A stretch of 6,467 nucleotides of DNA from Deltaproteobacteria bacterium (GTDB lineage Bacteria; Desulfobacterota_B; Binatia; UBA9968): contig JACPSF010000171.1 in assembly GCA_016193385.1 (NCBI GenBank), forward strand, positions 1 through 6,467. Reading direction: 5' to 3'. Position numbers and translations under genes: made by a program. The notes beneath the pieces are model-generated. The model worked only from the letters and a program-made list of their open reading frames with translations, was not told the origin of the DNA and did no database searches. Positions 481 to 5,901 of this stretch are shown piece by piece. How positions within the stretch are numbered: the stretch's first letter is position 1; the number at the start of each line of letters is the position of its first letter.

Positions 481-1695
481 ATGCCCCAGTTTTATTACAA
501 AGCAAGAAACCTGCTCGGTCAGCGGGTCACGGGTCTGATGGTGGTGTCAGACGAGCTGGAGCTTGAAGAGCGGCTGCGCATCAACCATCTCTTTCTCGTC
601 GAGGCGAAAAAGGAAGGGGGTCCCAAGAGGGTGCCACTCTTTGGCGCGAAGATCGCCAGGACGGACGTGATTACCTTCACGGTGCATCTGGCGGTCATTT
701 TTTCTGCCGGGGTTCCTCTCCTGCAAGGGCTGGAGGATCTCAGGGCGCAGACGGATAAGAAAAGCTTTCAGTTCATCATCGGGCAGATCATTGAAGATGT
801 CCAAGGGGGGTCGAGCATCTCTGCGGCCTTGGCAAAACACCCCAAGGTTTTCTCCGAGGTCTATGTCAATATGGTGGCGGCAGGGGAGCTGAGCGGCAAT
901 ATGCCAACCATACTCAACGAGATGGTCCGTTTCCTCGAATGGCAGGAGGCCTTGACCACAGAGATCAAGAGGGCCACCACCTATCCCACGGTGGTCTTTA
1001 TTGCCGTTGTTGCCCTGGTCACCATCCTTTACACATTTGCCTTTCCGAGAATTTTTCCCGTTCTCCTCAGTATGAAGGTACCGCTGCCGTTCGTCACCCG
1101 GCTGGTGATCGGGGTCAGCCAATTCTTCAGCGCTTACTGGCATGTGCTTCTCGCTGCGATCTTTCTAATCTTCTTTGCTATCAAGTTGGCGAGGAGACGT
1201 CCGGGGGGAAAATTGTTCCTTGATGGCGTCATGTTGCGCCTCCCGGTCATTGGCGACCTGGCGCGGAAGATTGCGCTTTCCCGCTTCGCCCATCACCTCG
1301 GCGCGCTTTTCCGCGCCGGGGTTGACATCTCCAAGAGCCTCGCCACCGTGGAACAGGTAGTGGGGAATGCCGTCATTGCCCGCGCCATCGCTACCACCAG
1401 AGAGAGGGTGTTGGAAGGGGCCACGCTCTGGTATTCGCTGCAACAGACCGGCGTCTTTTCCCCTCTGGTGATCCGCATGGTCTCCATAGGAGAGACAAGC
1501 GGGAAGATGGATGAGACCCTGGTCAAGGTGTGTCAGTACTATGACCAGGAGGTGCCCGCGGCGGTCAAGCGGCTCTTCTCGGTCGTGGAGCCGCTGATTA
1601 TCGTGTTTTTGGCCCTCCTGGTGGTGGTGTCGGCCCTTGCCATGTACCTCCCGCTTTACAGCGCCCTGGGAAGGATTAGCGGCGGGAAATTTTAG
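481..1695 (+). CDS. gspF: GspF/PilC-type inner-membrane platform protein
   Basis: This 404-residue polytopic inner-membrane protein is the platform on which the ATPase acts to insert pseudopilins; the length is normal for the family. Two T2SSF repeats are visible. The first has FSAGVPLLQGL (residues 74-84) and AGELSGNM (134-141). The second has LFRAGVDISKSL (276-287) and IGETSGKMDETL (336-347). Hydrophobic segments lie at about 169-187, 217-236 and 371-391, the standard three-helix arrangement, and IFPVLLSMKVPLP follows the first. The N-terminal YYKARNLLGQRVTGLM is the typical GspF opening. ATG 481 is the first start after the in-frame gspE stop, with only three codons between. Its upstream AAAGAG abuts the ATG and is a weak ribosome site, so translation is probably coupled to gspE. 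No key element is missing. Confidence 0.96.
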   Translation: MPQFYYKARNLLGQRVTGLMVVSDELELEERLRINHLFLVEAKKEGGPKRVPLFGAKIARTDVITFTVHLAVIFSAGVPLLQGLEDLRAQTDKKSFQFIIGQIIEDVQGGSSISAALAKHPKVFSEVYVNMVAAGELSGNMPTILNEMVRFLEWQEALTTEIKRATTYPTVVFIAVVALVTILYTFAFPRIFPVLLSMKVPLPFVTRLVIGVSQFFSAYWHVLLAAIFLIFFAIKLARRRPGGKLFLDGVMLRLPVIGDLARKIALSRFAHHLGALFRAGVDISKSLATVEQVVGNAVIARAIATTRERVLEGATLWYSLQQTGVFSPLVIRMVSIGETSGKMDETLVKVCQYYDQEVPAAVKRLFSVVEPLIIVFLALLVVVSALAMYLPLYSALGRISGGKF

Positions 1696-1704: not shown

Positions 1705-2538
1705 ATGGGCAAAAAAATTCTACGAATCGGCAGACAGGGCGTGACCCTTTTAGAGGTCCTTATGTTCCTGGCTATTTTTGCCATCCTCGCCGCGGTCTTG
1801 GTCCCTTTTATATTCGGCGAGCTGACGCTCTCCAGGGAAGAGGAGACGCGGCAGGAGATAGAAAAGCTGGTGGAGGCGATCGCAGGGAAGCCGGAGCTGG
1901 GCACGTTCGGCTTTGTGGGCGACTTTGGCAGATTGCCCAATACTCTTTCTGAGCTGAACAGCGCGATCACACCGGCCTTTCATACTGCTGATGGGGGGAC
2001 CAATCACAGAGGGGTTGTCGGCATGGGCTGGAACGGACCCTATTTTAAGGAAGAGTTCTTTAGCGGGGACAATCTCAAGGATGCCTGGGGAACCGATTAC
2101 CAATACACGGTCACCTCGGAGACTCGGGTAGAGGGAGGTGTGAGTCTCACCACGAGTAAGGGTCAGATCGTCAGCGCCGGCTCGGACAAGCAGTTTGGCA
2201 ACTCCGACGATATCAAGTCAGAACTCTTCTATGACAAAGGACATCTCTTTTTGACTGTGACCCAGGGAGGAGGGGACCAACCAGCGAATAATGTGACCGC
2301 AACCCTCTTTTTCCCGGTTAATGGAGAACAGTCCAGCATAGTCAGTGAACCCACTCCAGTCGCGGCCCCTGAGGGCTCCGAGACGACCATTGTTTTTGCC
2401 TCTGTTCCTGGTGGGTCCCGCTTTGTCCAGATCGATTTTGGCGGAAGCAAACACGAGATCTTTTATGTGGGGTTGACATCGAACATCGCCAATCGGATCA
2501 ATGTCAAGGTCCCGCTCGGCCAGGGCGGCAAGGCTTAG
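1705..2538 (+). CDS. gspG: GspG-like pseudopilin with C-terminal extension (copy 1)
   Basis: A 277-residue pseudopilin precursor. The type III signal is MGKKILRIGRQG followed by VTLLEV: cleavage and N-methylation would occur after Gly12, and Glu17 is the Glu5 of the mature protein. The membrane helix is about 13-36. The GspG-like core has GDFGRLPNTLSEL (72-84), WNGPYF (109-114), DAWG (126-129), and a calcium-type loop SAGSDKQFGNSDDI (157-170) with Asp161, Asp168 and Asp169. Ordinary GspG is about 140-150 residues and ends near here; this protein continues for about 105 residues. That extension is beta-rich, with NGEQ (206-209) and FASVPGG (231-237), both echoed in the next two genes. It resembles a transthyretin or carboxypeptidase-regulatory type beta-sandwich, but that is a fold guess. 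There are no cysteines. With the best ribosome site and full Asp-Asp loop it is the best candidate for major pseudopilin. Confidence 0.88.
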   Translation: MGKKILRIGRQGVTLLEVLMFLAIFAILAAVLVPFIFGELTLSREEETRQEIEKLVEAIAGKPELGTFGFVGDFGRLPNTLSELNSAITPAFHTADGGTNHRGVVGMGWNGPYFKEEFFSGDNLKDAWGTDYQYTVTSETRVEGGVSLTTSKGQIVSAGSDKQFGNSDDIKSELFYDKGHLFLTVTQGGGDQPANNVTATLFFPVNGEQSSIVSEPTPVAAPEGSETTIVFASVPGGSRFVQIDFGGSKHEIFYVGLTSNIANRINVKVPLGQGGKA

Positions 2539-2551
2539 GCGATGGCCATTC

Positions 2552-2556
2552 GAGGT
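2552..2556 (+). promoter_or_regulatory. Shine-Dalgarno site that decides a TTG start
   Basis: GAGGT ends 7 bases before TTG 2564. The only upstream in-frame ATG (2501) lies inside the preceding gene, has no purine-rich site before it, and would give an unusually long arginine-rich leader. This site therefore favours TTG 2564. Confidence 0.65.
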
Positions 2557-2563
2557 TAAAAGA

Positions 2564-3427
2564 TTGATCAGTCAGTCCCGCTTGCTTGATCAGAAAGGGC
2601 TAACGCTTTTAGAGGCAATTGTAACCCTGGGGATCCTCAGTATCTTGATCGCGGCTCTGACTCCGGTTGCTTTGAACCTTTTCAACACGGATCGCAGTCG
2701 GACAACGGAGAAAAAGGCGGAGAAGATTTTTCGCGCGATCTATGGGGATGGGGTGCGGGGAAGTGGAGATTTCGGCTATCTGGGCGACATGGGGCGCTTG
2801 CCCACGACTCTCACGGAGCTTTTGAGCCAAGGGAGCCAGACGGCCTTTCACACCGCCGATGGAGGTACGGACCATATAGGAAAAGTTGGGACAGGGTGGA
2901 GAGGGCCTTATCTAAAAGGCTTTTCCCAGGATGAGCTGCTGAAAGATGCTTGGGGCGAGAGCTTTTCTTATACCGATACCGGCGCCGACGCGGGCAAGAT
3001 TATCAGCGGCGGGCCCGATGGCAACACCGGCACTGCCGCGGATAATCTTCTCTTTCCAGCCAATGCCCCAGGGACCACGGGGACCCTCTTTGTCTCTCTT
3101 CTTATCAACCGGATCCCTGAGCCAGTGGGGTCAGTGATCAGGCTCTATACGGTTTCGAATGGGGAGCAGGTCCTCTTTGGGCGCAAGACCACAAGCGATG
3201 CAGGTTTTGATGGTTTCTTCTTTCAGAATGTGCCCCAGGGGCTGCATGCGATAAGGGCGGGCCATATCGGCCTAAATAGCAGCACCAATCTATGCGTCAC
3301 CATCACGCGGGAGGTAACGGTCCAGGTCTCGGCCAATCTACAGACGGTTAAAGAGATTCGCATGTTGACCTCCGCCGACGTCAAGGTCATAGGGACCGAT
3401 TGTCTGCCCATACCTGGTAGCTTGTAG
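2564..3427 (+). CDS. GspG-like pseudopilin with C-terminal extension (copy 2)
   Basis: From TTG 2564 this is a 287-residue prepilin, 25 bases after copy 1. The leader MISQSRLLDQKG is 12 residues, the same length as in copy 1, and is followed by LTLLEA with Glu17 as Glu5; the helix is about 13-36. An ATG at 2501 would add 21 residues and overlap copy 1, and is less likely. The GspG-like core is residues 70-165: GYLGDMGRLPTTLTELL, HTADGGTDH (96-104), WRGPYL (112-117), DAWG (128-131), and the loop SGGPDGNTGTAADN (148-161). The C-terminal domain (about 174-287) is beta-rich with NGEQ (199-202) and FQNVPQG (220-226). It holds the protein's only two cysteines, Cys244 and Cys280, which could pair in the periplasm. 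The core is about 70% identical to copy 3 by hand count, while the signal helix and extension are much less alike. It is probably a second pseudopilin in the same filament or an alternative subunit. Confidence 0.87.
   Translation: MISQSRLLDQKGLTLLEAIVTLGILSILIAALTPVALNLFNTDRSRTTEKKAEKIFRAIYGDGVRGSGDFGYLGDMGRLPTTLTELLSQGSQTAFHTADGGTDHIGKVGTGWRGPYLKGFSQDELLKDAWGESFSYTDTGADAGKIISGGPDGNTGTAADNLLFPANAPGTTGTLFVSLLINRIPEPVGSVIRLYTVSNGEQVLFGRKTTSDAGFDGFFFQNVPQGLHAIRAGHIGLNSSTNLCVTITREVTVQVSANLQTVKEIRMLTSADVKVIGTDCLPIPGSL
2771..3094 (+). repeat. Direct repeat unit A: duplicated pseudopilin core in copy 2
   Basis: This 324-base stretch, encoding residues 70-177 of copy 2, matches 3635-3961 in copy 3 at both DNA and protein level. 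Examples are the shared runs ATGGGGCGCTTGCCC and ACTCTCAC. Protein identity is about 70% by hand count, with one codon gained in copy 3. The similarity falls off on both sides, so this is the conserved part of a tandem gene duplication. Confidence 0.75.
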
Positions 3428-3430
3428 GAT

Positions 3431-3439
3431 GAGGTGATC
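3431..3439 (+). promoter_or_regulatory. Extended Shine-Dalgarno site that decides a start
   Basis: GAGGTGATC is a nine-base match to the extended anti-Shine-Dalgarno complement (TAAGGAGGTGATC). After its GAGGT there are 7 bases to TTG 3443, the same spacing as in copy 2. A GTG inside the motif (3434) is also in frame and would give a 12-residue leader, but would put the start codon within the ribosome site itself. Only AGGA (3426-3429) would then serve it. Confidence 0.55.
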
Positions 3440-3442
3440 TTG

Positions 3443-4252
3443 TTGAACAGAAGACAAAGGATGCGCGGCTTCTCCTTAATCGAGATGCTGGCGGTGCTCG
3501 CCATCCTGGCCATCCTCATAGGCTTTTTGGCGCCGGTGCTCTTAAAGAGCACGGAGACAGCTAGAACAGAGGCCACGGAGGCTGAGGCGGAGAAGATCTT
3601 TAAGGCGATTGTGGGAGAGCCGTCCAAAGCGAATTTTGGCTATCTCGGCGATATGGGGCGCTTGCCCGCGACTCTCACCGAGCTTTTAACCCAGGGGGCG
3701 CAGACAGCCTTTCATACGGCCGATAGCGGCGTGGATCACGTAGGCCGGGTGGGCACGGGCTGGCGCGGTCCCTATCTCACGGGCCTTTCGCAGGAGGATA
3801 TCCTCAAAGACGCCTGGGGAAATGACTATTCGTATACCAACACAGGAAACAACGCTGGTCAAATCAAGAGCGGCGGAGCTGACGGAGATCTCAACACAGC
3901 CTCAGATAACATCGTCTTCCCTGCAGACCTTCCTGTAGGAACCACGGGAACGCTGGTGGTCCACGTTCTGGTAAACGATATTCCTCAGCCTGCGGGCCTC
4001 ACCGTGGAGGTCTACACCACTGACAGCACCGGCGAGCAGGTGAAACGAGCAGGCACAGACGGTACGCAGACAACCGCCGCTCAAGGTAGCACCCCTTTCA
4101 GGTTTTCAGTGCCTCATGGAGTCACTGTGGTGAAGGCAACCCATACGAGCGCAGGGGTCACGGTGACCCGGACGGTGAATGTTGGGGTGGCGGCCAACAC
4201 GCAGGTGGAGAAGCGGATCATTATGAAGACCACGGCCACCGTCGCCATGTGA
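3443..4252 (+). CDS. GspG-like pseudopilin with C-terminal extension (copy 3)
   Basis: A 269-residue prepilin from TTG 3443; GTG 3434 is an alternative that adds three residues and would match the 12-residue leaders of copies 1 and 2. The leader MNRRQRMRG is followed by FSLIEML, the most classical class III junction of the three, with Glu14 as Glu5 and a helix at about 10-33. The core is residues 65-160: GYLGDMGRLPATLTELL, HTADSGVDH (91-99), WRGPYL (107-112 region), DAWG (123-126), and the loop SGGADGDLNTASDN (143-156). The extension (about 170-269) is rich in Thr and Val, with TGEQ (196-199) and FSVPHG (221-226), so it is homologous to those of copies 1 and 2. There are no cysteines. Its stop overlaps the start of the PilMN fusion gene by 4 bases, tying it to the machinery genes. 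Its role as a co-subunit or minor pseudopilin is inferred. Confidence 0.87.
   Translation: MNRRQRMRGFSLIEMLAVLAILAILIGFLAPVLLKSTETARTEATEAEAEKIFKAIVGEPSKANFGYLGDMGRLPATLTELLTQGAQTAFHTADSGVDHVGRVGTGWRGPYLTGLSQEDILKDAWGNDYSYTNTGNNAGQIKSGGADGDLNTASDNIVFPADLPVGTTGTLVVHVLVNDIPQPAGLTVEVYTTDSTGEQVKRAGTDGTQTTAAQGSTPFRFSVPHGVTVVKATHTSAGVTVTRTVNVGVAANTQVEKRIIMKTTATVAM
3635..3961 (+). repeat. Direct repeat unit B: duplicated pseudopilin core in copy 3
   Basis: Partner of the repeat at 2771-3094, encoding residues 65-173 of copy 3. Many differences are at third codon positions (for example GGCGATATG against GGCGACATG), showing selection on the protein since duplication. Copy 1 shares the same segment at lower identity, over half of residues by hand alignment. 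Confidence 0.75.
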
Positions 4253-5901
4253 CGATGGGAAAACCAGAGCAGAGGGAAAGAGCAGAGGTGGAAGAGAACC
4301 AATCTAAGGAGGGATGGCTCTTTAATCCCGAGGTAGAAGGACTCGAGGGCGCGGAGCGATCTCGGGGCCGTCGTGCCGGGCTGTGGCAGCGGCTTGGGTA
4401 TGGGAGAAAGAGCGTCGTTGGCATTGAGGTGGGCTCCTCCGAGTTGCGGCTCATCGAGGCCGATATGGATTCGCTCCCTTTAACCCTGCGCCGGATCGTG
4501 CGAGTGGAGACCCTTTCGCCTGATCCAGAGAATATCGCTCGACAGATCCGTGGCCTATTGCAGCAGAACGAGATAAAGAGCGATTTTGGCGCCCTCTCTC
4601 TCTCGGGCCCTGAGGTCATTCACCGCGTTTTAGAGATACCCTTGATGCCGCGCTCAGAGATGAGGGCGGTGGTCGAGCGCGAGGTATTGCGCGAGAGCCG
4701 GCAAGCATCCGGACCTATGGCCCATGGCTGGTACCCCATCGGTGAGGTGGAAGAGGCCGGGGTCAAGAAGGTGAGGGTTTTGGTCGTTATAGCTCCGAAA
4801 TCTCTGGTCGAAGGCGCCGAAGAGCTTTTGCGCCTGTGCGGCTTCAAGCGCTGGCTCATCACGAGCACCCCTCTAGCGCTGCTGCAATCGATCCGCGCTT
4901 TCTATTTTGGCGCCGGAGGTGTTGTGGGACTGATGCACATCGGAGAGTCGATGGGCTATCTCCTCTTCGCCCGCCATGGAAGCTGGGGCTTTTGTCAGGA
5001 GTTTCCCCTTCATCCCCCGCCGCTTCTTGATCAGCTTACGCTCGAACTCAAACGTGGACAGCATTTCTATCGGCAGAAATTTCCCGCTGGCAGAATCGAG
5101 GGAATCATCATAAGCGGAAAGCGCAGCGAAAGGCTTAAGCCGGCCATAGAAGGGCAGCTCGACCTGGAGCTGGAAGTTTTTGATCCGGCCCGAAACCTCG
5201 ACTTATCCCAGTTAAGAAACGTCGAGAAAGAGGACTTCTCTTCTTTTGCCAGCCTTCTGGGACTCGTAAGCGAGTCCCCCCGTAGGGCAGAGATCAACCT
5301 CGCCACGCCAGCCCCAAGTCCATGGCTCGACAGTCGGGTTCAGGGAGCCGTAGCGGCGGGATTATCGATCGCTGTAGCCGGGCTCCTGCTATTCCAATCG
5401 ATCGCCGTTTCGAAGGAGGTGGGGACGCTCCGCTCCCGCCTGAACCAGAAGCGCCAGGAACTCGGCGCTCTGCAAACGGCGCTGAAACAGGCAGAAGAGC
5501 AAAAGGCCCTGGCCGCCTTGGCCCAGGAATTGGCGAGATTCAGAGGACAACAGGGTGATGCCTCGTCGCTGCTCCCTGTCTTTCAATATCTCAGCATGAT
5601 TGTTCCCGATGAAATGGTATTTACTTCCTTGACCTTTATACCCGCAGGGGATCGGTGGGAGATCCGGATCAAGGGGCAGGTCATCGCGGCGGAATTTTAT
5701 CGCGCCCAAACAGTCTTTAATCAGTTCTATTTGAATTTGGTTTCCTCCCTCCTCTTGGAGAGTGTGGAGCTGCCTCCTTTTTCGGTCTCGGTCGTGGATG
5801 CTAAGGGGGCTCTGAGGCGCCCGGATCAAGGCCAGCAGGAGGTGGGGGAAAAGAAAAGCAAGATCGATTTTGAGGTCTCGCTCAAGACTAGGACCGTTTA
5901 G
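4249..5901 (+). CDS. pilMN: PilM-PilN fusion protein (GspL-like assembly protein)
   Basis: A 550-residue bitopic inner-membrane protein joining what are usually two proteins. Residues 1-55 are a charged, probably disordered cytoplasmic tail. About 56-345 is a PilM-type actin-like domain opening with VVGIEVGSSELRLIEA (56-71), with a second nucleotide-site-like strand VVGLMHIGES (225-234). At 348-351 is EINL, matching the 'INL' docking motif with which separate PilN binds PilM. A membrane helix follows at about 364-387, a coiled coil at 388-432, then a PilN-type ferredoxin-like periplasmic domain (437-550) with MIVPDEMVFTSL and IRIKGQV. GspL has the same plan but is usually about 400 residues. 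The GTG start overlaps the preceding stop as GTGA; ATG 4255 is an alternative. Neither has a clear ribosome site, so translational coupling is likely. Its job would be to connect the ATPase to the periplasmic alignment complex. Confidence 0.88.
   Translation: MTMGKPEQRERAEVEENQSKEGWLFNPEVEGLEGAERSRGRRAGLWQRLGYGRKSVVGIEVGSSELRLIEADMDSLPLTLRRIVRVETLSPDPENIARQIRGLLQQNEIKSDFGALSLSGPEVIHRVLEIPLMPRSEMRAVVEREVLRESRQASGPMAHGWYPIGEVEEAGVKKVRVLVVIAPKSLVEGAEELLRLCGFKRWLITSTPLALLQSIRAFYFGAGGVVGLMHIGESMGYLLFARHGSWGFCQEFPLHPPPLLDQLTLELKRGQHFYRQKFPAGRIEGIIISGKRSERLKPAIEGQLDLELEVFDPARNLDLSQLRNVEKEDFSSFASLLGLVSESPRRAEINLATPAPSPWLDSRVQGAVAAGLSIAVAGLLLFQSIAVSKEVGTLRSRLNQKRQELGALQTALKQAEEQKALAALAQELARFRGQQGDASSLLPVFQYLSMIVPDEMVFTSLTFIPAGDRWEIRIKGQVIAAEFYRAQTVFNQFYLNLVSSLLLESVELPPFSVSVVDAKGALRRPDQGQQEVGEKKSKIDFEVSLKTRTV

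Follow-up and report, generated by a model that had tools for sequence, protein, structure and literature searches.

Canonical type II secretion system (T2SS) operons carry the genes for the minor pseudopilins H, I, J and K between gspF and gspL. What, then, is to be made of an operon in which the interval from gspF to a gspL-like gene is occupied by three related pseudopilin genes? This arrangement lies on contig JACPSF010000171.1 of a Deltaproteobacteria bacterium, analysed over its entire 6467 bases (the window), which has the order E-F-[G1-G2-G3]-L-(M), all genes on the + strand and tightly packed, and in which none of H, I, J or K occurs from gspF to the gspL-like gene. The original prediction, made from the letters of this DNA, had proposed that the system differs from a canonical T2SS, and here we agree with it. 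By analogy, our best reading of the operon is a T2SS variant comparable to the Pul/Oxp system of the Geobacteraceae. There is perhaps an even chance that it is an atypical T2SS in which a single extended GspG-type subunit was duplicated into three, and in which a tip complex of these extended GspG paralogues replaces GspI, GspJ and GspK.

Three consecutive pseudopilins with a GspG core

Three + strand open reading frames follow one another at 1705-2538, 2501-3427 and 3434-4252. G1 (1705..2538) encodes 277 aa. For G2 the start is most likely the TTG at 2564 rather than 2501, because the orthologues P0036 and P0027 (287 aa) begin there and a GAGGT lies just upstream, giving a gene at 2564..3427 of about 287 aa; for G3, a database entry of 270 aa places the start at 3440 (3440..4252). 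That the three consecutive genes have a GspG core, as first proposed, was confirmed: each has the prepilin N-terminus, the GRLP, GPY and DAWG motifs, the acidic loop and the near-invariant S-G-D-D loop, and the modelled cores have the GspG fold, matching GspG structures. Full-protein identity is 33% between G2 and G1, 39% between G3 and G1 and 54% between G2 and G3.

Family models give a graded picture. Pfam N_methyl exceeds its cut-off in all three proteins, while the T2SSG domain (cut-off 21) is recognised in two of the three, G2 (26.9) and G3 (28.6), with G1 falling short at 18.2. Usual GspG proteins are about 140-150 aa long; compared with that major pseudopilin (T2SSG, TIGR01710), the window proteins are twice the length, exist in three copies and score far under the TIGR01710 equivalog cut-off of 88.85 bits (32.1, 32.4 and 46.3 bits for the three). 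A search of G1-G3 for the T2SSK domain at E up to 1 gave no match. In architecture they are modular pilins, with a class III signal and pilin helix in all three and two-domain models for G1 and G3.

The C-terminal extensions share an origin and a predicted fold

As cut for profile comparison, the extensions comprise 104 residues in G1 (2224..2535), 122 in G2 (3059..3424) and 109 in G3 (3923..4249), all on the + strand. The shared motifs from which a common ancestor had been proposed are present throughout, as NGEQ, NGEQ and TGEQ and as VPGG, VPQG and VPHG in G1, G2 and G3, respectively. Profile comparison bears out common descent, with probabilities of 99.6% for G2-G3 (E 1e-23), 94.4% for G1-G2 (8.5e-8) and 72.3% for G1-G3 (3.3e-5), and by this measure the three extensions are homologous beyond chance. 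Further afield the signal declines: the extension of the G1-type protein of L002, a locus in a Desulfobacteraceae metagenome-assembled genome (MAG), matches the G1 set at only 65%, and homology of the extensions of tandem copies in L007, L010 and L012 to those of G1-G3 is unsupported, at probabilities of 0.1-33%.

The extensions had also been expected to be ordered beta-sandwiches, and the structure predictions of G1 and G3 agree. The G1 extension is modelled as a transthyretin/CnaB-like beta-sandwich and that of G3 (model pLDDT 91.9, pTM 0.82) as a transthyretin/carboxypeptidase-regulatory/CnaB-like one; the G2 extension is assigned by its profile homology to that of G3. A Foldseek search with an undivided model gave a single match below 0.001 (3phs), and query TM-scores were 0.16-0.29 over the 50 rows listed; a second comparison treated core and extension apart, and the CnaB/transthyretin-type matches of the extension include pilin and adhesin domains. 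The assignment to transthyretin/carboxypeptidase-regulatory-like domains is one of fold only, because Pfam has no matching model of such a domain: a scan of 58 aligned rows at E 0.01 returned only N_methyl and T2SSG, plus DUF4148 in two rows. DUF2207, EMC7 and phage-tail Pfam matches of window proteins lay far under their cut-offs and were disregarded. Among the GspG relatives, P0069-P0099 are longer modular pseudopilins of roughly 370-420 residues, some with precomputed PF17210, PF13620 or PF02369 domains, which we take to be SdrD_B, CarboxypepD_reg and Big_1, respectively.

G1, G2 and G3 are separate orthologue families

The three DIFFERENTIATED subunits G1, G2 and G3 are separate orthologue families, each with its own signature. 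Relatives were gathered as 141 proteins matching G3 (the best 120 of the 141 listed) and 28 matching G1, itself included. The G1 family, including L001_G1 (from an Acidobacteriota MAG) and L002_G1, forms one clade in both trees (24 rows, 99/98, in the first; 15 rows, 100/99, in the second). In a 67-row tree built without the Cys and tail region, the 16 G2-type rows with a conserved Cys pair near the C-terminus are split off from all the others by a single branch (99/90, recovered in 99% of 200 bootstrap trees). A V-x-M C-terminal end occurs in 47 of the 51 rows without the Cys pair, the exceptions being P0053, P0056, L002_G2 and L002_G3, and is the signature of G3 (47/47 G3 rows). G1-type and G2/G3-type genes appear to be neighbours on other contigs too, since their source contigs are equal in size (P0125/P0032, 2801; P0126/P0045, 1968; P0133/P0012, 3389).

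The feature that marks most of the G1 family is loss of Glu5, which among the three families is seen in this one only. Position 5 is readable in 26 of the 28 G1-family rows, where it is Glu in three (the window, P0124 and P0127) and another residue in 23 (13 Gly, 4 Ile, 3 Ala, 1 Trp, 1 Met and 1 Thr). On a stricter count, omitting P0133, P0146 and P0147, which are annotated to start within the motif, Glu5 is absent from 20 of 23 fully readable rows. In a comparison set of 72 rows, comprising the G2 and G3 types and some more distant G3 matches, Glu5 is present in all 71 readable rows. These counts are not independent events, because the rows share descent.

In the genome searches the best 6, 12 or 27 candidates were scored in most genomes. 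Relatives occurred in 4 of 95 genomes from the same phylum as G010 (an NC10 MAG; E 1e-20, one match each), in 6 of 396 in the phylum of G001 (the Acidobacteriota MAG; 1e-35) and in 11 of 395 in the phylum of G002 (the Desulfobacteraceae MAG), where only G002 was G1-like, as well as in 1 of 18 genomes of the family of G002. A search with the G1 alignment in the class of G001 matched 10 of 193 genomes at 1e-25, with G1-like scores only in G001 and G653.

Related loci suggest that one extended gene became three

In four relatives with a single extended copy (L011, L066, L068 and L069) the order is E, F, extended GspG and GspL-like gene, followed by a secretin; in L011, L068 and L069, E is also preceded by one or two short GspG-like genes, and each of these loci has an ATPase that we take to be ExeA-like. 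The window shares this single-copy order with three extended genes, which argues that one extended GspG became three. L067 deviates from it, with E and F followed by three short and one extended GspG-like genes. The Acidobacteriota locus (L001/L065) has a short GspG followed by G1, G2 and G3, and the contig ends within the gspE that comes next. In L002, two short GspG-like genes are followed 3 kb on by three extended genes, the first of them a member of the G1 clade; as L002_G2 and L002_G3 pair with each other (94/92, second tree), this split may be separate from the G2/G3 split of the window. Two G1 genes occur in genome G653, one adjoining a GspL-like gene (L064) and the other solitary (L063).

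An unextended GspG-like gene lies a few kb away in eight loci (L001, L002, L006, L009, L011, L034, L068 and L069). Short GspG-like genes in the vicinity of extended ones fall into a single clade (6 rows, 100/99, in the first tree; 8 rows, 100/99, in the second), and such separate unextended genes are better candidates for the shaft subunit than G1-G3.

Several other features of these loci may be recorded. The solitary G1-type gene of L063 (5883-6812, minus strand) has Gly5 and apparently unrelated neighbours; on its 9.6 kb contig there was no second pseudopilin and no match to seven T2SS-related query proteins. Beside the L001 triple, on the opposite strand, L065:9182-13591 (minus strand) holds another E and F pair together with an extended GspG, the match to which contains one TAG and one TAA. 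Sigma-54 (NtrC-type) response regulators adjoin the operons at L002:1678-3180 and L008:4082-7051, the latter locus also having a histidine kinase.

Tandem clusters and Glu5 loss elsewhere

With a score cut applied, at least two adjacent GspG-like genes were found at 22 loci, or 16 after dropping same-genome copies. In six of the 16 clusters (L001, L002, L004, L007, L010 and L034) position 5 of one subunit is A, I, T, A, S or Q. L010 is counted here through L010_c, whose score of 29.9 is slightly under the cut; L010 additionally has a copy with D5. Tandem extended GspG-like genes exist elsewhere that arose separately, some likewise without Glu5. In the second tree L034_c pairs with the Glu-bearing L034_b (100/95), and L007_a/L010_c join L010_b (99/94), so that at least two origins are needed for the four Glu5-less rows outside the G1 clade; L007_a and L010_c are, however, long branches meeting, and L004_b has no firm place. 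The first tree puts L010_b elsewhere and is compatible with a single origin of L007_a, L010_c and L004_b. A single origin of all Glu5-less subunits is therefore disfavoured by the second tree, yet compatible with these three rows of the first. In three WOR-3 MAGs (L012, L013 and L014) three GspG-like genes in a row, all with Glu5, precede a PilM-like gene, apparently a separate tandem expansion.

A candidate tip complex and its alternatives

We propose that G1, G2 and G3 would assemble together to cap a short pseudopilus, the shaft of which would be an unextended GspG encoded elsewhere in the source organism. G1 would substitute for GspK, and G2 and G3 for GspI and GspJ, with the extra domains making a head that would contact cargo and secretin as GspE and GspF extend the pseudopilus. 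According to the available part of PMC5207764, GspK, a bulky protein, alone lacks Glu5 among the minor pseudopilins H, I, J and K and is believed to sit only at the tip. Most G1 orthologues suit such a role, in which G2 and G3 would be their partners. No T2SSK domain was matched in L001_G1, L002_G1, L004_b, L007_a, L010_c or P0131 (E up to 0.1), and in a search of 11 genomes none was matched on any locus contig (for L007, L012 and L013, as judged from the matching frame lengths), four genomes having no match at all.

Several observations weigh against this proposal. The window G1 itself retains Glu5, as do its orthologues P0124 and P0127, so the residue gives no argument for a tip position in this copy; nor does it rule one out, since TcpB is a tip-associated minor pilin in which Glu5 is present, as the same partial source has it (PMC5207764). 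Every scored copy has Glu5 in 10 of the 16 adjacent clusters, including the three WOR-3 triples. Pro22 is no marker of G1, being missing in 14 of 27 readable G1, 0 of 16 G2 and 20 of 47 G3 rows. Seven of the 11 genomes carry T2SSK elsewhere, and because the genomes are mostly MAGs its absence is weak evidence. Finally, the 6467-base contig shows only E-F-G-L-(M), with neither a secretin nor a short GspG inside it.

The original prediction had envisaged G1-G3 as co-major subunits, forming a heteropolymeric pseudopilus or pilus coated throughout with beta-sandwich domains. Heteropolymeric type 4 pili do exist, on the evidence of the consulted portion of PMC10628169, no other pilin gene is visible in the window, and all three window copies combine the GspG core and the near-invariant loop with Glu5. 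However, the separate unextended gene in related loci, the lack of Glu5 in most G1 orthologues and the presence of three subunit types, each with conserved features of its own, which suits a fixed stoichiometry better, make this reading rather unlikely. More doubtful still is that G1-G3 are modular minor pilins of a type IV pilus (T4P), on which they display an extra domain, for instance for adhesion, instead of belonging to a secretion device. Modular pilins are widespread (>1,200 proteins in 264 architectures, according to the available part of PMC8179133), the pilin and adhesin domains among the structural matches would suit such a role, and there is a PilM model match in the GspL-like protein. 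Against this, the pilin core is of GspG type, GspE and GspF slightly favour T2SS over T4P models (all below cut-off), and relatives have a secretin, three of them together with the presumed ExeA-like ATPase. Simple local duplication into redundant, unspecialised copies is very improbable: tandem copies do group by locus in L012 and, in the second tree, for L007_b/c and L002_G2/G3, but the G1, G2 and G3 types separate, each with its signature, and the G1-G2-G3 order is kept in L001. Judged from their sequences, G1-G3 are three differentiated subunits rather than redundant copies, and their differentiation resembles that of a tip set.

Neighbouring genes in the window

Upstream of G1 lie the 3' end of a gspE/pilB-like assembly ATPase gene, truncated by the contig start (1..471, +), and a gene for a gspF/pilC-like inner-membrane platform protein of 404 aa (481..1695, +). 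Their T2SSE (127.8 bits) and T2SSF (173.7 bits) domains exceed the Pfam cut-offs, both domains being common to T2SS and T4P. T2SS models score slightly above T4P models for both, each under its cut-off: the gspE fragment partially matches TIGR02533 (194.9 bits) and TIGR02538 (161.3 bits), and the gspF product matches TIGR02120 at 310 bits (cut-off 424) and the PilC model NF052607 at 306 bits (cut-off 700). Downstream, the gspL-like protein of 550 aa (4249..5901, +) has a PilM-like part, after which come a hydrophobic segment, as read from the sequence, and another domain, and matches TIGR01175 pilM at 47.4 bits (E 1.3e-12), under the cut-off of 133; it seems isolated, with one relative besides itself (82%) among the best 7998 candidates scored. 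Next comes a possible gspM/pilO-like gene, only the start of which lies before the contig end (5902..6467, +), with a weak match to the GspM model NF040576 (E 0.064).

Known systems and significance

Several G-type pseudopilins in one T2SS are what the window shares with the Geobacteraceae Pul/Oxp system, an atypical T2SS with two or three pseudopilins bearing G-type names (PulG, OxpG and TklG) and needed for OmpB secretion; the comparison is with its description in the accessible part of PMC3543383. GspK/XcpX is, in the partial source cited above (PMC5207764), large, present once per system and without Glu5, like most G1 orthologues, whereas G1 consists of a GspG core and a C-terminal beta-sandwich, has no T2SSK match and, in the window, has Glu5. 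Modular (bimodular) pilins such as S. sanguinis PilB likewise have an extra module grafted C-terminally, so far as the available part of PMC8179133 goes, but the window differs from PilB in its module, its GspG-type core, its three modular subunits in a row and its T2SS-like operon. A check of whether the triple is already described as a standard variant turned up no account of a tandem extended GspG triple in the literature covered, subscription papers being mostly outside it, and the portion consulted of the type IV filament survey PMC6668835 holds nothing on such an arrangement.

It is somewhat less than evenly likely that a T2SS lineage has replaced its GspI/J/K tip with three GspG paralogues carrying transthyretin-like heads, and that a GspK-like subunit without Glu5 arose from GspG-type stock more than once (in the G1 clade, L034, Bdellovibrionota and perhaps Planctomycetota). 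The origin and role of the minor-pseudopilin tip are still debated, and a system that seems to have rebuilt its tip out of major-pseudopilin relatives, repeatedly losing one and the same residue, would amount to a natural experiment. If this is so, loss of Glu5 is predicted to commit a subunit to the tip, and the idea of the modular pilin would come to cover three differentiated subunits that are conserved as a set.

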